DNA of 25,609 nucleotides from a virus: positions 1 through 25,609 of IMG/VR virus record IMGVR_UViG_3300042504_001105, one strand, 5' to 3'. Both the position numbers and the translations under genes were made by a program. Below are positions 1 through 21,927 of the stretch, piece after piece. Below the pieces are notes generated by a model. It did no database searches. It was given only the letters and a program-made list of their open reading frames with translations, and was not told the DNA's origin. How positions within the stretch are numbered: position 1 is the stretch's first letter; every line of letters begins with the position of its first letter.

Positions 1-1455
1 TACCTCTTGCCACCCAAAAGCAACGCCAATCTTAATTTTTGACTGCGTAGCGTCAATGTCAACAATCTGATAGCGGGTGTCGGTAACGTTTGCAGGCCAT
101 ACAGCACCAGAGGCTGTCTGTTTCACCAGCCACATGCCGACGTTAATACCTAAGTCGTCAGTCAACCTATCGACGCCAGCGGTGCCGCTTGTCACAGTCA
201 TGAAGCCTGTCGCAAGATCGAAGTCAGAAACCCCTAACCTATCCCCTGTGCGATATACGGGGTCGTCAAATTGGGTGCCACCAGCAGCAGCCCCGATGCC
301 TCCACCCGCATTATTAAACACTTCATTTTCTTCAATAATTATTTCGCTACCAAAAACGACAATAATGCCCGTGTTGTCATTATTGTATACGCGATTGCGC
401 CTAATGACACACTGCATAATTGCCGATTGGCCGTTTGCCATGTAAAGATTTGCTTCAACGTCGATCCCAGCTTGAGGCGAATTAGTAACGGCCCCAGAAA
501 GATCGCAACCCTCAATCAAACACCCATGCACGGCAACCACCGAGATCACGTTACGCCCCGGATTGGTGCCCTTGCAATCTATGATGCTGATGTTTTTTGA
601 AACATTGTTGGCGGCGGGGTTGCCACCAATGTAGAAACAGTCATCACCGCCGCCGCCGGACCCATCGGCCCACAGGCCGCGCACAGAACACCGATCAGCA
701 CCTTGCAAGATGTAAATGTTATGGCTGCTTTGTGAGCCGTCCATCGTGGTCTTTGCGCCGTACCCCCAAATATGAACATCAGGCTGTTGAATCTGAAAAC
801 AGCGAGAACCGCCGCTAATCGCGACAATGTTTACCCCCGGCTCAAGAAAAATAAACGTGTCGGCGACTGGAATAATCCGGTCTGTTAGATAAGTCCCCTT
901 GGGAAAATACAGAGTTTTTCCTGCGGCAGCAGCAACAGCCGCATAGATAGCCGTCGTGTCAATCGTAATGCCGTCTCCAGCAGCACCAAAGTCTTTCACG
1001 GATATAATATCGCGCATTTTATCTTGGGCGGATCGTGCAACTGCACCCGCGCCAGAAGATAAGAAACCGATCCAGTCAGACCCATCTGCATCCGCCAAAT
1101 CTTCAACATTACCGATTTGGTTATTAAACCCAGTAAAAGTAATCTGAGATGCGGGCGGGGGTGCAGGGACAGAGACGTTGTCGTATGTACCCAACAAAAC
1201 CGACGCAGATGTGTTGATAACAAATTTGTAATCTGAACCCTCAGTCAACCAAATCTGGCCGCCTGGCACACGCCCCGCGCTGTCTAACACGATAGGGTTA
1301 GTGTGCGGCGTGCCGCCCGTTACAGAAGTGTACGTAGTTTGCGGCGTAGTCGTACCGGCTGCGTAGGTATATATTTTACCCCCGGACAACGGTTGACCGT
1401 TGTTGTCAAAAAACTGACCTGCATAACCGCCAATAGGCGAGGGATTAACTGGCAT
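1..1455 (-). CDS. Tailspike / tail fibre protein, pectate-lyase fold (3' end cut by window)
   Basis: Open for 485 codons from the ATG at 1455 to the window edge, so the C-terminus is missing. Residues about 8-82 (GGYAGQFFDNNGQPLSGGKI onwards, ending in TEGSDYKFVI) look like the N-terminal particle-anchoring domain of podovirus tailspikes. Residues about 152-190 contain SVKDFGAAGDG and then LYFPKGTYL, the opening of the Pectate_lyase_3 right-handed beta-helix. The remainder is rich in G, N, V and I, as expected of a beta-helix. The likely role is binding and possibly cleaving a host surface polysaccharide. GAGG sits about 8 bases before the ATG. It is the last visible gene of the leftward virion operon, and its GC is lower than that of the portal and terminase genes, as is common for exchangeable receptor-binding genes. 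The enzymatic specificity cannot be read from the sequence. Confidence 0.88.
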   Translation of the reverse strand, partial: MPVNPSPIGGYAGQFFDNNGQPLSGGKIYTYAAGTTTPQTTYTSVTGGTPHTNPIVLDSAGRVPGGQIWLTEGSDYKFVINTSASVLLGTYDNVSVPAPPPASQITFTGFNNQIGNVEDLADADGSDWIGFLSSGAGAVARSAQDKMRDIISVKDFGAAGDGITIDTTAIYAAVAAAAGKTLYFPKGTYLTDRIIPVADTFIFLEPGVNIVAISGGSRCFQIQQPDVHIWGYGAKTTMDGSQSSHNIYILQGADRCSVRGLWADGSGGGGDDCFYIGGNPAANNVSKNISIIDCKGTNPGRNVISVVAVHGCLIEGCDLSGAVTNSPQAGIDVEANLYMANGQSAIMQCVIRRNRVYNNDNTGIIVVFGSEIIIEENEVFNNAGGGIGAAAGGTQFDDPVYRTGDRLGVSDFDLATGFMTVTSGTAGVDRLTDDLGINVGMWLVKQTASGAVWPANVTDTRYQIVDIDATQSKIKIGVAFGWQEV

Positions 1456-1524
1456 ACTTATACCCTCAATAGATCCGTTAACAAAAACGTGTGCGCGACA
1501 GCCATGACAAACAAACTAAGCATG

Positions 1525-2673
1525 TCAGTACGCTTTCGTCACACTGTTAGTCCATGCCTCAGCAGAGGCAATCGTTGAGGCCGACAGATTTGTTGCGGAG
1601 AAACGCGCAATTAAGCTATAGAGCCTGCCGTTAAAATATCCAGCCGCAGTAGCTTGTCTGCCTATGTATAGTACCTGCGAACCAAAACTTGTCACCCCAC
1701 TATCCGTAGCAGAGCCCGTTGCCTTGACCGTTCCGTTTTCTCTCAAGGAAATTTCACCTGCCCCTGCTGCGGCGGCGTCATACAGAGTTGAAAACACAAC
1801 TGTATACGGCGCGACTTTGGTAACGCGCGGTGACAAGTTAAGAGCCGACCCATATAGAACGGCGCGGTAGGCATCCGTCGAACCATCGCCAGTAATAAGA
1901 CGCATCATGGCATCTGTCGCAGTAGTAGTGGTATCGCCAAACTGCCACACGGGGCTATTGTTTGACCTTGGCAATCCTACTCTGGTGCCTGCAAACATCT
2001 GCGCTTTTGTTACGCTGCCAGGGTTAATGCTTGCCGTGGCAAGAAAATCCGCCGTACCATCAAAGAAAAGGTAATACGGGAAATTTGTGGTGTCGTAATC
2101 AGTAGCTGTGGTGACACGCTGATAGGCTGGGAGACCTACGCCATCGCTGGTGACGCGGAGATCTGCGTTTGTAACCGTTCCCGATACGGTAATGGTAAGC
2201 GATCCGGCAGTGCAAGTAATAGAGTTGCTTCCTGCGGTATACGTTCCGGTGGCTGTACCCGATAACGTGACGGAACCATCGCCGCTAAAGGCGAGCGTGT
2301 AAGCCGTTGCAACAGTTGTTACCGATTGCGTAGACAGCGTAGCCGTAGCCAAAAGCTGGTTCACCCTAGCACTCAGCACGGGGCAAGAGGCTGGTGTGGC
2401 TTGCGTGGCGGTGTTGCCGCGACCGGACTTGTCAAGAATGCGGCCTACAGATTGCTCCACCGCTGTAACAGGCGTGGTCCCCGCGCTGTCTTGGAACATC
2501 GTGGTGAAATCGGACGGGTCGTACCAAACACCTTGCTCGCCCGCTGCAAAAAGCGAAGCAGGGTTAAATGCTTGACCTGCCGACAGCATCATCACGCCAT
2601 AACTGGGCTGGTAATAGTCCAGATACCGCTTAATGCGGTCGCCGCCATCAAAACCAGCCGGGGAGCGGATCAT
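1525..2673 (-). CDS. Tail-associated protein with concanavalin-like C-terminal half
   Basis: Encodes 382 residues. The N-terminus carries GVWYDPSDFTTMFQDSAGTT and SVGRILDKSGRGN (about residues 49-86), a pattern common in phage tail and receptor-binding proteins. The second half (TVVFSTLYDAA, ISLRENGTVKATGS, LYIGRQATAAGYFNGRLYSLI) resembles a LamG/concanavalin-like jelly roll, which in virion proteins usually serves carbohydrate or surface contact. The middle is a Thr/Ser/Gly-rich beta segment (residues about 110-190). The start overlaps the upstream stop by four bases (ATGA) and has no Shine-Dalgarno of its own, so it is probably translated by coupling. It lies directly upstream of the tailspike and shares its lower GC. 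The exact structural role is unknown. Confidence 0.75.
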   Translation of the reverse strand: MIRSPAGFDGGDRIKRYLDYYQPSYGVMMLSAGQAFNPASLFAAGEQGVWYDPSDFTTMFQDSAGTTPVTAVEQSVGRILDKSGRGNTATQATPASCPVLSARVNQLLATATLSTQSVTTVATAYTLAFSGDGSVTLSGTATGTYTAGSNSITCTAGSLTITVSGTVTNADLRVTSDGVGLPAYQRVTTATDYDTTNFPYYLFFDGTADFLATASINPGSVTKAQMFAGTRVGLPRSNNSPVWQFGDTTTTATDAMMRLITGDGSTDAYRAVLYGSALNLSPRVTKVAPYTVVFSTLYDAAAAGAGEISLRENGTVKATGSATDSGVTSFGSQVLYIGRQATAAGYFNGRLYSLIARFSATNLSASTIASAEAWTNSVTKAY

Positions 2674-2945
2674 GCGTAGTAAGACACGTTGATGGTTGCG
2701 GAAGCCGTCTGCTGGATGAACTGGATGGCCTTGAGGTCGCCGTCGTAGGACAGCGACACGCCCGTGGCCAGCGGCATCCCGACCGAGGCGGTCGGCGCCG
2801 TGCCGTCATCGCGCCAGCGAACGGCCTGCGTCTCCGCAACGACCAAGGCCAGAGTGGCCCCGACCGGGACGGTCAGCGCAGTCGATGCAGACAGGCTGGT
2901 GATCTGCTGGTAGCCCAAACACTGCGTGGTGGTCTTAAGGCCCAT
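2670..2945 (-). CDS. Small virion-module protein, beta-rich
   Basis: Encodes 91 residues, starting at the ATG at 2945 behind a strong AAGGAGG. The sequence has short beta-type stretches (ALTVPVGATLALVVAE) and the signature VRWRDDGTAPTASVGMPLATG. Small proteins with this signature occur in the head-tail gene clusters of many phages and prophages, so a decoration or head-tail accessory role is plausible. No catalytic motif is visible. It sits between the helical protein (2956-3321) and the tail protein (1525-2673), overlapping the latter by four bases. The family resemblance is from memory and the function is inferred from position. Confidence 0.7.
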   Translation of the reverse strand: MGLKTTTQCLGYQQITSLSASTALTVPVGATLALVVAETQAVRWRDDGTAPTASVGMPLATGVSLSYDGDLKAIQFIQQTASATINVSYYA

Positions 2946-2955
2946 GATAGCCTCC

Positions 2956-3321
2956 TTATGCGAGGAACTTGAGTTTGTAAATCGTAGTATAGTACAACCC
3001 TACGATCTCGTCGATGACGTTCTGAAGTGGCGTGCAGTCCTTGTCTACCACCTTATACCGAATGTCTTCAATTTCTGTCGCCTGCCGCTCAAGAAATTCC
3101 AGCACGTTGCTGGACTTGTCCGCCGACATCAGCATGACCGGCCCGATCAGGCCGTACTTGCCCTGGTACATTTCGGCAAACTTGTCGGCAAGGTCGATGA
3201 TTGCCGGGTAGAACTTACCCAACGCCTTGTGCTTGGCAAACGACCGTGTGTTGAGGTGTGCCGAGTGCGTTACGTCGCGCGCAAGGAACAGCATACCTAG
3301 AAACTTGTCGCAACCGCTCAT
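2956..3321 (-). CDS. Helical phage protein, DUF5856-like
   Basis: Encodes 121 residues, all predicted helical, with HSAHLNTRSFAKHKALGKFYP near the N-terminus and LADKFAEMYQGKYGLIGP in the middle. The His/Glu spacing and four-helix look resemble the ferritin-like/Dps-like small proteins classed as DUF5856 in phages; this assignment is from memory. An AAGGAG lies seven bases before the ATG, and the start overlaps the portal stop by four bases (ATGA), so it is co-translated with the portal gene. It could bind metal or be a small virion component; nothing in the sequence decides between these. Confidence 0.65.
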   Translation of the reverse strand: MSGCDKFLGMLFLARDVTHSAHLNTRSFAKHKALGKFYPAIIDLADKFAEMYQGKYGLIGPVMLMSADKSSNVLEFLERQATEIEDIRYKVVDKDCTPLQNVIDEIVGLYYTTIYKLKFLA

Positions 3322-5468
3322 ACAGGGGCTCCTTCAACAGGCATTTCGGGCGGCAGCGGCATCTGGCGTTCGGACGGCTGCGGCATCGTCGGGCGTCCGT
3401 TTGAGATGTCGCCCGTTTCGATGGCCGCTGCGATGGTGCCCATGACGATGTCCTGTATCTGGTCAGGCGTCATGGCGTTCTGGACCGCCGAGATGCGCTT
3501 GGTCTCGGCGTCATACGCTTTAATCTGCAACTCCTGCGCTTCCATCGAGTTCTGGATGTTCTCGACCATACCCATGGTTTGGTTGAGCTGCTGGGTCAGC
3601 GCCTCGATCATCTGCTCGGCAGACTGGAGTTCCGGCGACTTGTCGTCCTCGGCCAGCACTTTCGGGTCGATGATCTTCTTGAAGCGGGCCGCCATCTCCT
3701 GCGCACCCGGCCAGTCCATGTTCTTGATGAACAGGTCGCCCGCCACCTGCCACAACTGCGGGCTGGTCTGGAGGATGTTGGCCATGGCCTCGACGGCCTC
3801 CTGGCGCTTGGTCAGATAGCTCGGGCCCGTGGTGATGACGACGTCGTAGGTGCCGACCGTCGGGTTGTAGATCTTCTCAATGACGTTGCCCGCAGCGTCC
3901 ATGATCGGCTTGACCGGCTCGGGCTGCTGCGGGTTGATCTTGGCCATGCCAACCTCACCGTCAACGCCGATGATGCGCGCGATGCGCTCGGTGTCGTAGA
4001 TCTTGGGGATCATGTCCACAAGCTGGCGGGTGATGTGGCGGATGGCGCGGCCGAGGTTGTCAACGTAGTGGTAGGTGCCCGTGTCGCCCTCCTGCACGCG
4101 CGCGAGGATGGCCTTGCCAGAGCGTTCGTTGCCCTGCTGGCCGAGGCTGGCGTTGTACTGGCCGGTCGTAGACTTGATGTCCTCCGCGGCGCCCATCTTG
4201 GCCTGAATAAGGCCCGTCTGCGCCATTGGCGGCTGAGAACGCTGCGGGAGAGGCAGGACATTTCCCGCGCCGTCGGTCACATCCGGGTTCACTTCGAGGT
4301 ACGGCCAGTTGGTCGTGTTGGCCGTCTTCCACTGCATCTCGTAGCCTTCAAACTGGCCGCCATAAGCAACGAAGGGTGCCTTGGGCGCCAAGGCCAGCAT
4401 CTCGGCCTCCTGGCTGGTCCAGTAGTTGTACATGCGCTGCGCGTCCTTGGCGTTGCGCACCAGCCCGGAGACGTACAGGCGTCCGTCTACCTCAAATTCG
4501 TTGCCGACGACCCGCACGACCGGGATGTACTTGCCGATCCACTCGCGCTCGTCCAGCACCTCGTAGCCATTGGTCTTGACCCACATGACCTTGCGGCGGT
4601 CAACGGTGCGGGTGCGCACCGGCTGGCCAAACATGGCCTTGAGCTGCCCATCCTGCGGCGTACCGTTGAAGGCGGTCACGTTGCCGGGGTAAAGGTTGAG
4701 CTTGGCCTTCTCATGGTCGATGTAGAAGTATTCCGCGATACGGACGGTGTTCTGACTAATCCATTGGCTTAGTGACTGGTCGCCAATACCCTGCGCCATG
4801 ATGGACGTAATGGGTGCTGCGTCGGGGAACATCCGCTCAAACTCTTCCTTGAGCAGGTCTTCCGTAATGAAGCACCACTTGGCGTCGGACCCGCACGGGT
4901 CTTGGATCGTCGGGTCCATATAGACGCTGAACGAGTTGCGGATGCGGCCGATGCGCAGATCCTGATCAAAACTGTCTTCTCGTGCATATTCTGTCAGGAT
5001 GCGGATGTAGCCCTCGCCGTAGGTCACCTGGTTGTCGCAGGCGGTGTCGTAGGCCACGTCGGCGTCCGACATATACTCGATGTGCCGGATGATGCCGTCG
5101 AAAACCTCGGCCACTGCCACGTCGGCGTTGTCGTCAGCCGGGATCACCTTGCCGCTGGGCCGGTTCTGCCGCTGCTGGTTGGTGACCTGCCGGACGTGCT
5201 GCGGCAGCTTGTTGATGGTCAGGCAGGGGCGCGCGTTGATCGTCTGACCTTGCACGGAGCCGCGGGTCGCCAGCACGTCGGCTGGCCACTGCCACTGGTT
5301 GTCGGGCGAGCCTGCCATGAAGCGCAGGTCGTCCAGTTCGTCCTCGCGGCTCTCGCCCAAGGCAGAAATGGCCATGGTAAAGCGCGACCGCATGGTCGAG
5401 AGCATGTCGCTCTTGTCCGTGCCGCCGTTGGCGACCTTGGCCGCGCCTTTGATGCCATCGTCTGCCAC
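3318..5468 (-). CDS. Portal protein, P22-like
   Basis: Encodes 716 residues, the size expected of P22-type portals, which form the dodecameric DNA gateway at one capsid vertex and bind the terminase and the tail. Typical features are the N-terminal Trp/Pro-rich segment (SPDNQWQWPADV), LTINKLPQHVRQVTNQQRQN at about residues 84-103, the acidic segment after NRPSGKVIP, the wing region with YGEGYIRILTEY, and ERSGKAILARVQEGD near residue 450. The C-terminal about 100 residues are helical and Gln/Glu-rich (MIEALTQQLNQTMGMVENIQ), consistent with a barrel-type coil. The start is GTG at 5468, overlapping the upstream TAG and preceded by AAGAGGA. It is followed without a gap by virion genes. Confidence 0.92.
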   Translation of the reverse strand: MADDGIKGAAKVANGGTDKSDMLSTMRSRFTMAISALGESREDELDDLRFMAGSPDNQWQWPADVLATRGSVQGQTINARPCLTINKLPQHVRQVTNQQRQNRPSGKVIPADDNADVAVAEVFDGIIRHIEYMSDADVAYDTACDNQVTYGEGYIRILTEYAREDSFDQDLRIGRIRNSFSVYMDPTIQDPCGSDAKWCFITEDLLKEEFERMFPDAAPITSIMAQGIGDQSLSQWISQNTVRIAEYFYIDHEKAKLNLYPGNVTAFNGTPQDGQLKAMFGQPVRTRTVDRRKVMWVKTNGYEVLDEREWIGKYIPVVRVVGNEFEVDGRLYVSGLVRNAKDAQRMYNYWTSQEAEMLALAPKAPFVAYGGQFEGYEMQWKTANTTNWPYLEVNPDVTDGAGNVLPLPQRSQPPMAQTGLIQAKMGAAEDIKSTTGQYNASLGQQGNERSGKAILARVQEGDTGTYHYVDNLGRAIRHITRQLVDMIPKIYDTERIARIIGVDGEVGMAKINPQQPEPVKPIMDAAGNVIEKIYNPTVGTYDVVITTGPSYLTKRQEAVEAMANILQTSPQLWQVAGDLFIKNMDWPGAQEMAARFKKIIDPKVLAEDDKSPELQSAEQMIEALTQQLNQTMGMVENIQNSMEAQELQIKAYDAETKRISAVQNAMTPDQIQDIVMGTIAAAIETGDISNGRPTMPQPSERQMPLPPEMPVEGAPV

Positions 5469-15459: not shown

Positions 15460-18294
15460 TCATGCCTTACCGTAACGAGCAAGCACTTTGCCGCTGGCAC
15501 CCAAAGGAAGCCCTTCAGCCCACGCGGGAGGGGTAACCATAACAGCCTGCATCGCGGCTGCCAATTCTTCTGATTTTTCTGTATCAACCTCGGCTACAAT
15601 TTCGTCGTGGACGTGCAAGACGACCTCGACGCCCGCGGCGTCCAGACCGCGCAGCGCCTCGCGCAGGATGTCGTTGGCAGTGGCCTGCACGATGTTCTCG
15701 CAGGCGAGCCCGCGCCAGAGCCGCGCCCGTGGCCACTCCTTGGCATCCGCCGCAGGCTTCCACGACGCCTTGGCGTAGGATACGCCGTCCTCCTCGAACC
15801 GCGCGTAGGGGTAGCACAGCACGCGGCCCGACGGCAGCGCGTACCACAGGTGGTCGCCCTGCTTCATGTACTGGACGCGGCCCGCCGTGAACACCTCGCC
15901 GGGGTTGCGGATGGCGCGGGTGTAGGCCTGCTCCAGATCCGACCAGAACGGCACGGCCCACGGATTGGCGCGGCGCCACAGGTCCACGGTGCGCCTCGCC
16001 TCGCTCTCGGGCATGTGGACGCCGTAGACGCGGCCCATGGCGCTGAACGCGCCCACGCCGCCGCCGAACCCGCAGTTATGTGTTATCAGCGGCCCCCTTG
16101 CACTCATCACTGTGAAGCGATTTTGAGGCCCCGCATACGCAATGTCGTAGACGCGCCTCAAGTTCGAGGATGTATCGCTGCATTTTTTGAATGCTGCGCT
16201 TGTTGTTGCAGTTGTCGCGCTTTGAGATAAATCGTAAGTTGCCGGGTTCGTATCCTTTGTTGACGTCGATACGATCCAGTTCCAAGCGCGGCTGATCCCA
16301 GCCATCCAGCGACATAACGTACGCAAGGAACGCAACTTTGTCAGTGTGCCACGGCTTGTAAAGACGAATACCTCGCCCGCCGTAGTTTGGGAACCCTCGG
16401 TCGTTTGGGTTGTGGCACCTGTTTTTGCAAGCGGACAAACGATTAAGAAGTCGCCGCCGATGCGCATCATTTGGACAAACGGTTGCGTACCGGAAGTAAT
16501 TCTTAATCCAATGTCCAGTAGCTTTTTTTGCACACGTATTACAGCGCGTAGAAGCGCCGTTTCTAAGGTTGTGAAGAGCGGCGACGTGAGGGGCGGCACC
16601 ACACGAGCATTGCACAATCGCGCCTCGTACCCCGCCAGCGGGACCGATTTGAAAACCAATGATGGCAAGTTCTCCGAACCTGTCGCCAACGCTCGGCAAA
16701 GCAACGGTTCGCTTGAAGCGAGTAGCCGCGCCTCGGCCCACTCGTTCGCTGCAAGAAACAAATGATCCGGCGTTGCGTCGATGCCTGCCACATTGACAGT
16801 CTGCTTTACACCTCTTGGAATTACTCCTTGGTGCGTCACCCATGCTTCACCGTCCCATAGTGCGTCGAGTTGTGTTACCTCCTGAATAGCCTTCCATCCG
16901 TTATCCGTCAACACTAACGTGTCTTCGGCTAAACAGGCCAGCACGGCCACCTTGCCAAGCTGCCGCTGCTCGTCAGTGACGGCCGTCTCCTCGACGTTGA
17001 ACATGCGCGCGGCGACGGCAACGTAGATGTCGCGGCCCTCGCGGAACACGTCCAGCGTCTCCTCGCCGTCCATCGACAGCCACGGCGTGACGCGGGCCTC
17101 GATCTGGGCGTAGTCGAACACGGCAAAGGACTTGCCCTCGGCCGGGATCAGCGCCGGGCGCAGCATCGACTTCAGCACGTCGGTGACGCGCTTGCCAAAC
17201 TCGGGCACGATCTGATGCCCGCGCACGAGTGCCTGGCGGGCTAGTTCAGGCTCTTTGGCACATTTTCGTGGGAAGTTGTGTACCTGTAATCCGTAGCTTG
17301 ATGCTCGGCCCGTAGCGCTTCCGCCAGCGAATACAAACGCACCCCGGACGCGACTGTCGAGATCATCTGAGAGCGATGCAGCTCGCTCAAACTTCGCCAC
17401 GGACGATGCCCAGAGATCGTCCGCGCACTGCACCACCTCATGGACTTCCGGGGATACTTCATCAGGGTTCTCCATCGCCAGCAGGTTGGACCGCACGGTC
17501 TTGTCGATGCTAGCCTTTTGTTCGCCGTCCTTCCAGACCATCATCATGGCCCGTGCCTGCGGCCCAACGCGCTCCAGCACCCACTCGCGCATACGGGGGC
17601 TACGCACGCTGGTGAGCCCCGTGATCTCGCGGAAGATCGTCTCGATCTCCTCCTGCTCGGCGGCGGCATACTTGACGGCTGCCTGCGCCAGCGGGCGGTC
17701 GAGGCGCACGCCGCGGTCGTTGATGCGCTCGTTGACGTGGTAGTCAAGCAGCTCCTCGTCGGTCAGCCCGCGCATAGCCTTCGAGAAGGCCCGCATGGCG
17801 CGCACGTCCTGCTCGCAGTACTCGATCATCTCCTGCATCAACCCGGCGTCCTCGCGGAACGTGCCGTTGGCCTGCGGGATGGACAGCGCACGCACCAGTG
17901 CTGCGCCACGGTGGTCCTTGCGCATCCCTGCGCCCGCAAAGCGGCCCACGTCCTCCAGGCTACCCGGTGCGCAGTTGGCGCGGGCCTGCGTCGCGGTGCA
18001 GTAGAACTGCGTCAGCGCAGGCTCGGGCACGCCGTGGTCAGGGCAGATGACGTACCAGAAGATCAGCCGCTCGAAGGCGGCGTTGTGGGCGCGGATCTGT
18101 GCGCCAGAAAGAATTGCCGCCGAAACTTTCTGTGGAAAGGACTGATCGGGTGTCCACGTCTGCACGTCCTCGTCATTGAAGGCGTAGGACATGCAGAGCA
18201 CTTGTGTGGAGATGTCTTGCGCGTAGTTGTACACGCCCCGGCTCGGCAGGTCGCAGCGCGAGCGGGTCTCGAAGTCAACCCAGAGTATTGTCAT
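15460..18294 (-). CDS. DNA polymerase I (family A) with intein
   Basis: Encodes 944 residues including a 287-residue intein, so the mature enzyme is about 657 residues. The 3'-5' proofreading domain has WVDFET (Asp7, Glu9), RAHNAAFE (68-75) and YCEQDV (159-164, Asp163). The polymerase has motif A VFDYAQIEARV (392-402, Asp394), motif B RQLGKVAVLA joined after splicing to CGFGGGVG, and motif C LHVHDEI (893-899, Asp897). The helix containing Arg444 and Lys448 is the nucleotide-binding O helix, and the intein interrupts it between A453 and C741. No Shine-Dalgarno is visible before the ATG. The gene lies between the possible ssDNA-binding protein and the secreted hydrolase in the leftward replication operon. 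Confidence 0.92.
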   Translation of the reverse strand: MTILWVDFETRSRCDLPSRGVYNYAQDISTQVLCMSYAFNDEDVQTWTPDQSFPQKVSAAILSGAQIRAHNAAFERLIFWYVICPDHGVPEPALTQFYCTATQARANCAPGSLEDVGRFAGAGMRKDHRGAALVRALSIPQANGTFREDAGLMQEMIEYCEQDVRAMRAFSKAMRGLTDEELLDYHVNERINDRGVRLDRPLAQAAVKYAAAEQEEIETIFREITGLTSVRSPRMREWVLERVGPQARAMMMVWKDGEQKASIDKTVRSNLLAMENPDEVSPEVHEVVQCADDLWASSVAKFERAASLSDDLDSRVRGAFVFAGGSATGRASSYGLQVHNFPRKCAKEPELARQALVRGHQIVPEFGKRVTDVLKSMLRPALIPAEGKSFAVFDYAQIEARVTPWLSMDGEETLDVFREGRDIYVAVAARMFNVEETAVTDEQRQLGKVAVLACLAEDTLVLTDNGWKAIQEVTQLDALWDGEAWVTHQGVIPRGVKQTVNVAGIDATPDHLFLAANEWAEARLLASSEPLLCRALATGSENLPSLVFKSVPLAGYEARLCNARVVPPLTSPLFTTLETALLRAVIRVQKKLLDIGLRITSGTQPFVQMMRIGGDFLIVCPLAKTGATTQTTEGSQTTAGEVFVFTSRGTLTKLRSLRTLCRWMAGISRAWNWIVSTSTKDTNPATYDLSQSATTATTSAAFKKCSDTSSNLRRVYDIAYAGPQNRFTVMSARGPLITHNCGFGGGVGAFSAMGRVYGVHMPESEARRTVDLWRRANPWAVPFWSDLEQAYTRAIRNPGEVFTAGRVQYMKQGDHLWYALPSGRVLCYPYARFEEDGVSYAKASWKPAADAKEWPRARLWRGLACENIVQATANDILREALRGLDAAGVEVVLHVHDEIVAEVDTEKSEELAAAMQAVMVTPPAWAEGLPLGASGKVLARYGKA
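16075..16935 (-). mobile_element. Intein in DNA polymerase motif B
   Basis: Polymerase residues 454-740. Splicing block A is CLAEDTLVLTDNGWKAI with Cys454 as first residue; block B is GIDATPDHLFL with Thr508 and His511; block F is VYDIAYAGPQNRFTV (715-729); block G is GPLITHN followed by Cys741 as the first extein residue. All residues needed for class 1 splicing are present. The segment between blocks B and F (about residues 530-710) has no homing endonuclease motif in this frame. Instead an HNH endonuclease is encoded there in another frame (16076-16843). The element is in frame with both exteins and should yield an active polymerase after splicing. Confidence 0.88.
16076..16843 (-). CDS. 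HNH homing endonuclease nested out of frame in the intein
   Basis: A 255-codon ORF in the -1 frame relative to the intein. From about residue 50 it matches the common phage HNH family. First comes SVGDRFGELAIIGF with a zinc-finger-like segment CSCG (79-82) and CNTC (101-104). Then comes LLNRLSACKNRCHNPNDRGF, NYGGRGIRLYKPW (153-165) and the nuclease core LELDRIDVNKGYEPGNLRFI followed by KRDNCNNKR (about 187-215). A C-terminal helix and CVCG segment follow. The first about 50 residues overlap intein block B coding and look non-homologous, so the true start is uncertain; ATG 16843, an in-frame GTG at about 16741 and a TTG at about 16696 are candidates, none with a clear Shine-Dalgarno. Its TAA lies within the last two codons of the intein. 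GC is lower than in the exteins, which indicates later arrival. Confidence 0.8.
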   Translation of the reverse strand: MGDAPRSNSKRCKADCQCGRHRRNAGSFVSCSERVGRGAATRFKRTVALPSVGDRFGELAIIGFQIGPAGGVRGAIVQCSCGAAPHVAALHNLRNGASTRCNTCAKKATGHWIKNYFRYATVCPNDAHRRRLLNRLSACKNRCHNPNDRGFPNYGGRGIRLYKPWHTDKVAFLAYVMSLDGWDQPRLELDRIDVNKGYEPGNLRFISKRDNCNNKRSIQKMQRYILELEARLRHCVCGASKSLHSDECKGAADNT

Positions 18295-20536: not shown

Positions 20537-20542
20537 ATGGTC

Positions 20543-20857
20543 ATGGTACGCGAAAGTGAGATCGAAAAGTACTTCGTCTGGACGGTGCAGCGCATGGGCG
20601 GGACGGCCTACAAGTTCAAGTCGCCCAACCACCGCGGCGTGGCCGACCGCATCGCCTGCCTGCCAGGCGGCGTCGTGTGGTTCGTGGAACTCAAAGCCCC
20701 CGGCGGGCGGCTGTCACCGCTCCAGAAACTCTTCGCGGCCCGCATGAAGGAACTCGGACAAAACTACACGACACTATGGTCAAAAACGGAGATAGACGAA
20801 TGGCGGCATACTATAACGAGTTCGACCCCTACGCAGCCCAATGGCTGCGCAACCTGA
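20543..20857 (+). CDS. VRR-NUC domain nuclease
   Basis: Encodes 104 residues from the ATG at 20543, which has GAGG six bases upstream; an ATG at 20537 is too close to it. The motif string GVADRIACLPGGVVWFVELK (Asp35, Glu49, Lys51) followed by GGRLSPLQ (Gln61) is diagnostic of stand-alone VRR-NUC PD-(D/E)XK nucleases of phages, which resolve branched or Holliday-type DNA structures. The C-terminal about 20 residues overlap the methyltransferase start and are probably not structural. It opens the rightward module. Confidence 0.88.
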   Translation: MVRESEIEKYFVWTVQRMGGTAYKFKSPNHRGVADRIACLPGGVVWFVELKAPGGRLSPLQKLFAARMKELGQNYTTLWSKTEIDEWRHTITSSTPTQPNGCAT

Positions 20858-21927
20858 TCGACAGTAAACTGATAGCGGAAGGTGACGTAGATGACAGATC
20901 AATTCGGGACGTGGCTTCGGGCGACCTCAAGGGTTACACGCAGTGCCACTTCTTCGCCGGTATCGGCGTCTGGTCCTACGCCCTCCGTCTCGCAGGATGG
21001 CCCGACGACCGGCCCGTCTGGACCGGCTCCTGCCCCTGCCAGCCCTTCAGCGCCGCCGGAAAGGGAGCAGGATTTGCCGACGAGCGTCACCTCTGGCCTG
21101 AGTTCCACCGGCTCATCGCCGAGTGCCATCCTCCAGTTGTCTTTGGAGAGCAGGTTGCGAGCAAGGACGGCCTCGGCTGGCTCGACACTGTACAGTCTGA
21201 CATGGAAGCATCGGGCTACGCCCTTGGGGCGGCTGATCTGTGCGCTGCGGGCGTCGGCGCACCGCACATCCGCCAGCGCCTCTGGTTTGTTGGAGAGCGG
21301 TTGGCTGACGCCAACGACGAGCGACATGAACGGAATCAGGAAACTGGATGGGACGCGCAGCGGAGGGCTGAACACCCAAGCGGCATTGACCGGCTGGGTG
21401 ACCACCACCACCAGGGACTGGAAGGACAGCGGCGCGGACATCAGGCCGAGGGAGGACGGCTCGGAGCGGTTCGACCAGTTGCCGAGACAGGCGAACTTGG
21501 CGGGCTGGCCAACGCCCAACACAATGACGGGCGGGCAGACGAGCCGGGGCGGAAATCGCAAGGGCGAACTGCTGATGGGTGGGGCGGCGCAGATGGCGGG
21601 CTGGGGCACCCCATCGGTGCAGGACGACAATCAGAGCCGCATGTCGCCGGAAGCGATGGCACGGGAATGGAGCAGGCCGGGTGCGTCTCAAAGCAACCTA
21701 GCGAAACAGGCGCACATGCTGACCGGCCCCGCCCGACTAACGGCCACTGGCGAGATGCTGACTGGCTCCACTGCCGCGATGGAAAGTGGCGGCCAGTTGA
21801 ACCCGGCACATTCCCGCTGGCTCATGGGGCTCCCGCCCGCGTGGGACGCCTGCGCGCCTACGGCAATGCCATCGTCCCGCAAGCAGCGGCAGAAGTGATC
21901 GGAGCCTATCTTGACGCTCGCCCTTAG
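20800..21927 (+). CDS. DNA cytosine C5 methyltransferase
   Basis: Encodes 375 residues from the ATG at 20800 with GGAG eight bases upstream. Motif I is FFAGIGVWSYAL (51-62); motif IV is GSCPCQPFSAAGKGAGF with catalytic Cys80; motif VI appears as GEQVAS instead of the usual ENV; motif VIII is RQRLWFVG (158-165); motifs IX-X lie in VGRLRAYGNAIVPQAAAEVI near the C-terminus. The long variable region (about 168-325) is hydrophilic, His/Gly/Arg-rich, and would hold the target recognition domain. It probably protects phage DNA from restriction. A second conserved ORF is embedded in the +1 frame over almost the whole gene, which explains the odd composition of the middle. No cognate restriction enzyme gene is adjacent. 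Confidence 0.88.
   Translation: MAAYYNEFDPYAAQWLRNLIDSKLIAEGDVDDRSIRDVASGDLKGYTQCHFFAGIGVWSYALRLAGWPDDRPVWTGSCPCQPFSAAGKGAGFADERHLWPEFHRLIAECHPPVVFGEQVASKDGLGWLDTVQSDMEASGYALGAADLCAAGVGAPHIRQRLWFVGERLADANDERHERNQETGWDAQRRAEHPSGIDRLGDHHHQGLEGQRRGHQAEGGRLGAVRPVAETGELGGLANAQHNDGRADEPGRKSQGRTADGWGGADGGLGHPIGAGRQSEPHVAGSDGTGMEQAGCVSKQPSETGAHADRPRPTNGHWRDADWLHCRDGKWRPVEPGTFPLAHGAPARVGRLRAYGNAIVPQAAAEVIGAYLDARP
20891..21898 (+). CDS. Embedded GW-TP repeat protein in the +1 frame of the methyltransferase
   Basis: A 335-residue ORF wholly inside the methyltransferase gene, with its own GGAAGG eight bases before the ATG at 20891. Residues about 85-135 contain LSLESRLRARTASAGSTLYS, LTWKHRATPLGR and LRASAHRTSASASG. 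Then come repeated modules GWLTPTTSD, GWVTTTTRDWKDSG, GWPTPNTMTG and GWGTPSVQDD, and a C-terminal NPAHSRWLMGLPPAWDACAP. I recognise this as a widespread phage and prophage protein family that also occurs next to, or overlapping, cytosine methyltransferases. Such family conservation is not expected of a chance shadow frame. The function is unknown; a role in methyltransferase targeting or host-DNA recognition is speculation. Confidence 0.72.
   Translation: MTDQFGTWLRATSRVTRSATSSPVSASGPTPSVSQDGPTTGPSGPAPAPASPSAPPEREQDLPTSVTSGLSSTGSSPSAILQLSLESRLRARTASAGSTLYSLTWKHRATPLGRLICALRASAHRTSASASGLLESGWLTPTTSDMNGIRKLDGTRSGGLNTQAALTGWVTTTTRDWKDSGADIRPREDGSERFDQLPRQANLAGWPTPNTMTGGQTSRGGNRKGELLMGGAAQMAGWGTPSVQDDNQSRMSPEAMAREWSRPGASQSNLAKQAHMLTGPARLTATGEMLTGSTAAMESGGQLNPAHSRWLMGLPPAWDACAPTAMPSSRKQRQK

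Follow-up and report, generated by a model that had tools for sequence, protein, structure and literature searches.

A phage DNA polymerase intein with a putative HNH-family endonuclease gene nested out of frame, and the intein family in which this layout recurs

How can one stretch of phage DNA be read in one frame as the interior of a DNA polymerase intein and in another as an endonuclease, and is such a layout an accident of a single sequence? The locus that raises this question lies in a virus fragment of 25,609 nt from IMG/VR, here called the window, where a family-A DNA polymerase ORF runs uninterrupted through an intein whose middle also encodes an HNH-family ORF in a shifted frame (Table 1). 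In our assessment the locus is probably a composite homing element, in which a splicing intein is combined with an overlapping, separately translated nuclease gene. The initial annotation had taken the arrangement to be non-standard. It is not a one-off: the same double-coded design recurs across hundreds of phages and prophages, with the nested gene in either of the two shifted frames.

Table 1. Features of the polymerase locus, in window coordinates.
Feature	Position	Strand	Description
Family-A DNA polymerase ORF	15460-18294	minus	944 aa, contiguous across intein and both exteins
N-extein, polymerase residues 1-453	16936..18294	minus	phrog_17 (PHROGs), DNA_pol_A (Pfam); ends ...QLGKVAVLA
Intein, C454-N740, then C741	16935-16075	minus	287 codons, 861 nt
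N-terminal Hint half, intein residues 1-93	16657..16935	minus	Cys1; block B T55PDH58
Intein-frame spacer, residues 94-256	16168..16656	minus	open, unconserved; doubles as the HNH coding core in the shifted frame
C-terminal Hint half, residues 257-287	16075..16167	minus	block F VYDI..RF; block G HN
C-extein from C741 (CGFGGGVGAF...)	15460..16074	minus	phrog_10285 / phrog_7766; contiguous in intein-free relatives
Nested HNH-family ORF (putative endonuclease)	16076..16843	minus	255 aa plus stop, ATG start, phrog_374
Proposed HNH start ATG	16841..16843	minus	intein nt 93-95; last base of codon 31 plus TG of Trp32
Shine-Dalgarno-like stretch	16847..16856	minus	GGGACGGTGA; upstream of HNH start, within W-D-G-E codons

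The intein sits in the motif-B loop of the polymerase, between ...GKVAVLA and CGFGGG..., and carries the complete residue set of a class-1-type intein: Cys1, the block B TxxH, block F, the block G His-Asn pair and Cys+1. Its splicing-domain residues C1, T55xxH58, D264, R273-F274, H286 and N287 are invariant in 10 of 10 diverse relatives, and the residue that follows the intein is C, replaced by S in Vibrio 97.13. AF2 predictions, built with IMG/VR rows, gave pLDDT values above 90 for intein residues 1-93 and of 94-96 for residues 257-287, and the intein model matched solved DnaX, DnaB and RecA mini-inteins in Foldseek (prob 1.00, best E=3e-3). These residues and the modelled Hint fold point to a splicing intein of class 1 type with predicted splicing activity. 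The region between the two halves, residues 94-256, has a pLDDT of about 30 and is predicted to be disordered. GC content is 53.0% in the intein vs 65.3% in the exteins. The intein boundaries and full set of blocks reported in the initial annotation are thus borne out, and an identical 861-nt intein in two other metagenome assemblies (L001 and L002), together with hundreds of relatives, rules out a sequencing or assembly error.

The nested ORF is offset by 2 (equivalent to -1) from the intein frame, where it had originally been placed, and its TAA stop is likewise confirmed within the last two intein codons, being formed by the T of CAT (His286) and the AA of AAC (Asn287). In PHROGs it matches phrog_374 (E=3.6e-34), phrog_3377 (1.4e-21), phrog_2081 and phrog_8790. 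As a separate observation, the intein half of phrog_93 includes a frame-shadow translation. Read in the HNH frame, the sequence has an AF2 pLDDT of about 92 across residues 50-215, and nested HNH copies keep C79, C81, C101, C104, YGGRGI, D190-R191, N202 and N214. Canonical HNH enzymes have a His in the first motif. Here that motif is D-R-I, with invariant D190 and R191, so that an Arg stands in place of the catalytic His; some free-standing HNH relatives have the same D-R-I motif. A Pfam search of the nested ORF returned no HNH match, and the HNH model found only weak matches in Foldseek, the Gme HNH nickase and PacI being the best by E-value and all E-values lying above 1. Because of the Arg in the motif, the blank Pfam result and the weak fold search, we regard catalysis as the least secure step of the whole account, and we call the ORF HNH-family by sequence and its nuclease activity putative.

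To place the locus among its relatives we used several searches, whose locus sets overlap in part. By tblastn against phage records we recovered the intein frame from 192 records (coverage of 80% or more in 142) and the HNH from 696. Among the matches are over 140 Salmonella phages, many of them of Jerseyvirus type, as well as Shigella EP23, Pseudomonas MR14, EBPR siphovirus 2 and Vibrio 97.13; profile scans of IMG/VR added 80 further loci. We checked 87 loci base by base: all had an open intein frame, and the HNH was shifted by -1 in 82 and by +1 in 5, with no case in frame. This set had been found via the intein frame, and we therefore repeated the search in two ways independent of that frame. 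An HNH-profile scan of bacterial genomes yielded 29 loci; in 27 of them the two splicing halves share an open frame and the HNH between them is shifted (-1 in 8, +1 in 19). A scan with the first 82 intein residues only returned 138 distinct inteins, all with an open intein frame and none with an in-frame endonuclease; 62 contain an HNH at -1, 64 at +1, 3 have shortened HNH copies and 9 are mini-inteins without HNH. Relatives with and without the nested ORF, which the initial annotation had proposed to look for, thus both exist, and apart from the three shortened copies and the mini-inteins we found no homologue with the HNH frame broken in otherwise conserved sequence. For a large family of inteins the double-coded layout is the rule, with the HNH in either shifted frame.

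The tree of HNH sequences contains a main -1 group, a Firmicutes-rich +1 group, with weak deep support between these two, and a further +1 group of APSE-1, Caulobacter RW and Shewanella SFCi1 that is placed among free-standing HNHs. From this grouping we infer at least two independent nestings. We think it likely that, within one splicing-domain family of phage inteins, the homing endonuclease is routinely encoded by a distinct gene in another frame, with a dedicated ribosome-binding site in the splicing block, that this state arose at least twice and in both shifted frames, and that dual-frame nesting is a standard, convergent solution and not an accident.

Could the intein frame be open across the HNH gene by chance? 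The probability of about 1 in 20,000 first put forward for this was overstated for a single locus. When the HNH protein of the window is held fixed and its own synonymous codons are permuted, 3.65 intein-frame stops are expected, and none occurs in 0.53% of 10,000 shuffles. The same null across 73 distinct -1 inteins gives 318 expected stops vs 0 observed, although the loci are not independent, and in five +1 inteins 43 are expected vs 0 observed. Six related HNH genes located outside such inteins, among them that of U1G in a fractured polA, have 7-25 stops in the equivalent frame. A chance open frame is therefore unlikely at the window locus (P=0.5%, a value that, like the other P values given here, is indicative only since related sequences are not independent) and is rejected for the family (0 vs 318 stops).

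The two frames are nonetheless under different kinds of selection. Between related inteins, substitutions at intein codon positions 1, 2 and 3 stand at 0.08, 0.07 and 0.23 in the splicing halves, vs 0.10, 0.34 and 0.15 in the middle, where these correspond to HNH positions 2, 3 and 1. The middle varies at HNH third positions, and the nuclease is therefore the protein under selection there. Purifying selection on the HNH frame is seen between close pairs, including the window and L003 (0.03, 0.21 and 0.07 at HNH positions 2, 3 and 1). Because intein second positions evolve fastest in the middle and the region is predicted to be disordered, the intein frame there is selected for openness only, and its amino-acid sequence is not conserved. 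The original proposal that selection keeps both proteins consequently stands overall, but not for the intein reading of the middle, which is kept open and nothing more.

These patterns bear on two other readings of the locus. In the first, homing has ceased, and the nested ORF persists as a relic that is decaying inside the intein. That the HNH can be lost is clear from the nine mini-inteins and the three shortened copies, and the Arg at the motif His position leaves nuclease activity a prediction, but the purifying selection between close pairs, the invariance of the zinc and motif residues and the recent gain suggested by near-identical empty alleles (see below) make a relic improbable. In the second, the intein is a dead insertion, with the polymerase inactivated or replaced, and only the HNH gene matters. 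Although splicing of the window intein is a prediction, the splicing residues are all invariant, the Hint halves diverge mainly at third positions, and the ORF is open across the whole insert in every fully recovered intein surveyed except L125, in which the N-terminal splicing block is frame-shifted, and an old Salmonella SS3e record, in which one indel breaks the intein frame. We give this reading almost no weight. A composite of two working genes remains our preferred account.

If the nuclease is a separate protein, its translation would need a start inside the intein. At intein nt 93-95 the -1 class has ATG, GTG or TTG in 72 of 73 distinct inteins; the first base of the triplet comes from the variable codon 31. 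A standard start codon at nt 93 is present in 48/48 of the -1 class vs 35/63 of the +1 class (P=5e-9). Most +1 inteins have instead an ATG at nt 146, preceded by, for example, AAGGAGGT or GAGAGGT; this ATG occurs in 52/63 of the +1 class and is absent from the six commonest codons at that site in the -1 class, so that the two classes serve as reciprocal controls for start codons. About half of the mini-inteins retain the +1 start signal. The anti-SD duplex upstream of nt 93 has an energy of -10.7 kcal/mol in the window and a mean of -7.9 over 73 loci, vs -3.0 kcal/mol at control NTGs in polymerase exteins. An SD-like match at nt 93 is also present in the +1 class, if weaker (mean -7.2 vs -8.8 in the -1 class, P=1.4e-6), and the signal is largely a by-product of the W-D-G codons; Glycine 29 avoids GGC (10/73, vs 46% in exteins). 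Two other candidate start codons for the HNH, at nt 78 and nt 195, have SD energies at or above background and are unsupported.

The HNH might also be made without internal initiation, joined to the polymerase and splicing block that precede it through programmed -1 or +1 ribosomal frameshifting. Single-base slips would reach both shifted frames, and a minority of loci have no HNH-frame stop for a long way ahead of the start (99 codons at most). In the window, however, an HNH-frame TGA at 16847-16849, inside GGGACGGTGA, stands one codon before the ATG, and frameshifting is therefore disfavoured there; across the family the upstream stop lies at a median of 7 codons in the -1 class and at 1-2 codons in most +1 loci, and only the class that depends on the nt 93 start codon has retained it. 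We consider frameshifting distinctly unlikely as the route to the HNH protein, and continue with internal initiation.

The distribution of the intein is that of a mobile element. Seven contigs (L145-L148 and L150-L152) lack precisely the 861 nt while sharing 85-96% nucleotide identity over about 2-2.5 kb of the polymerase gene, and the insertion site is empty in at least 69 of the best 80 polymerase matches. The window and L003 share 72% identity in the exteins, vs 90% in the Hint halves and 89% in the HNH; for the window and EBPR siphovirus 2 the corresponding values are 33%, 58% and 52%. Other pairs show the opposite trend, as with L037, whose exteins are more like those of the window than its intein is. 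Family members are inserted at several different sites in polymerase genes, and the same element is found in SNF2-type helicase genes, as named from extein motifs, in L084 and L088. The intein thus shows two features expected of a homing element, exact empty sites in near relatives and transfer that goes beyond the host-gene phylogeny; its GC content, lower than that of the exteins, is foreign to the host gene. The near-identical empty alleles suggest recent gain of the intein.

We infer splicing, HNH translation, cutting and homing as the steps of the following model. A first gene, the class-1-type intein, would be translated within the polymerase and would excise itself from the motif-B loop, leaving the phage with a working polymerase. 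A second gene, for a zinc-ribbon HNH-family endonuclease, would lie inside the intein one base out of frame, with ribosomes initiating internally at an ATG or GTG whose start and SD-like sequence are contained in the coding sequence of the N-terminal block. The nuclease would cut intein-free polymerase alleles of co-infecting phages at or near the insertion site, and, with the intein-bearing copy as repair template, intein and nuclease would spread as a unit. The intein-frame reading of the nuclease region would serve as a passive disordered spacer that need only be kept free of stops. If this model is right, intein splicing and homing are carried by two overlapping genes read from different frames of one DNA, a state that evolution has reached repeatedly. 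The family would then offer a widespread natural system for the study of overlapping genes under opposing constraints, with built-in controls in its Hint-only and HNH-only regions, its two frames and its mini-inteins without the nested gene. Many phage records label such loci plain polymerases or mini-inteins, so that many putative endonuclease genes, among them those of common Salmonella phages, are missing from annotation.

In canonical homing inteins such as PI-SceI and Mtu RecA, the splicing domain is split by the homing endonuclease between blocks B and F. There the endonuclease is part of the same polypeptide, whereas in the window it would be a separate protein from another frame; an endonuclease in the splicing frame was seen in 0/138 of the inteins surveyed here. 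In fractured genes with split inteins, a free-standing endonuclease gene lies between the intein or gene halves. Escherichia phage U1G, with a split polA and an HNH between the halves, resembles the window in the position of the endonuclease, but its host gene is broken and the equivalent frame across its HNH is interrupted by 13 stops, whereas the host ORF of the window is continuous. With the profiles used here, we found neither a splicing block nor an HNH of the window type in phiC31, considered as a possible historical precedent.

Further parallels come from within the family. Salmonella phage inteins of the Ent1/SETP3 type also have a -1 HNH, at about 41-49% identity, but occupy a different insertion site (GKA|CELGLGY). 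The Ent1-Ent3 records annotate the intein, and that of Ent1 describes it only as 'encoding splicing domains', with no endonuclease, so that the nested HNH was overlooked. The record of Hamiltonella phage APSE-1 (NC_000935) lists an HNH endonuclease CDS (P46) nested in a DNA polymerase CDS (P45) and does not describe the general pattern; by frame it belongs to the +1 class, and it differs from the window in its polymerase site, before CENICQ, and in an HNH closer to free-standing enzymes.

Among the papers accessible to our literature search, we found none that treats intact splicing inteins with an endonuclease in another frame as a class. For the ShiLan domain and the Pacc40 hidden HNH, Arsenault et al. 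2025 (PMC11855218) describe HNH genes that lie out of frame within phage methylase genes and lack a surrounding splicing domain, and they cite Gosselin et al. 2025 (bioRxiv 10.1101/2025.01.02.630785, 'non-canonical architecture') and Gorbalenya 1998 ('Non-canonical inteins') beside overlapping reading frames; part of the window arrangement may be described in either of those papers. In ShiLan and Pacc40, as in the window, the insert carries an HNH gene in a different frame and does not interrupt the reading frame of its host phage gene, and the distribution is disjunct (PMC11855218); ShiLan also shares the third frame and the TAAC end. That ending hinted that ShiLan might be a degenerate form of the window intein, an idea we rejected, as its HNH belongs to another family (the -1 ORF of ShiLan gp65 reads ...EHVHHVNG...) and no splicing block was seen. 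Its host gene is a methylase and no Shine-Dalgarno sequence was found for it, whereas the HNH of the window lies within a full splicing intein. APSE-1 P46 and, from 2025, the ShiLan methylase are partial precedents for the layout described here.

Four related loci (L118, L122, L129 and L140) each contain a second match to the splicing blocks, and these sequences suggest that each carries two inteins of the window's type, adjacent either within a single gene or across two genes that lie next to each other. The protein family phrog_93 appears to join two parts: columns 1-300 correspond to an intein half, including the shadow of the HNH in the other frame, and columns 351-443 to a second, 'endonuclease' half. 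A small ORF in the window matches this second half, and genes of its type may elsewhere also be a site of the same type of intein. The window also holds a second pair of ORFs in two frames of the same DNA, both matching DNA methyltransferase families.

Features in the window and in related loci

Source	Feature	Position	Strand	Match
Window	Small ORF	20537-20857	+	phrog_93, 'endonuclease' half
Window	416-aa ORF	20677-21927	+	phrog_363, E 1e-87
Window	335-aa ORF, different frame	20891-21898	+	phrog_31772, E 8e-37; phrog_1008, E 6e-27
L014, Salmonella phage SS3e	Intein frame broken by indel	2995-3801		
L125, Eubacterium plexicaudatum	Prophage intein copy	2743-3668		
L112, Escherichia phage U1G	Split polA with HNH gene	187-3606		

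The splicing frame is interrupted in two of the surveyed records. The indel in SS3e is either a sequencing error or a real break, and because it disrupts the intein frame the HNH is annotated there as a separate gene between two polymerase pieces. In the E. plexicaudatum prophage copy, a possible pseudogene, the N-terminal splicing block is divided between two frames, while the HNH and the C-terminal block are still present.

In phage U1G, polA is split into two ORFs with an HNH gene between them that overlaps both and belongs to the same broad family as the nested HNH, a fractured-gene arrangement that serves as a point of comparison.
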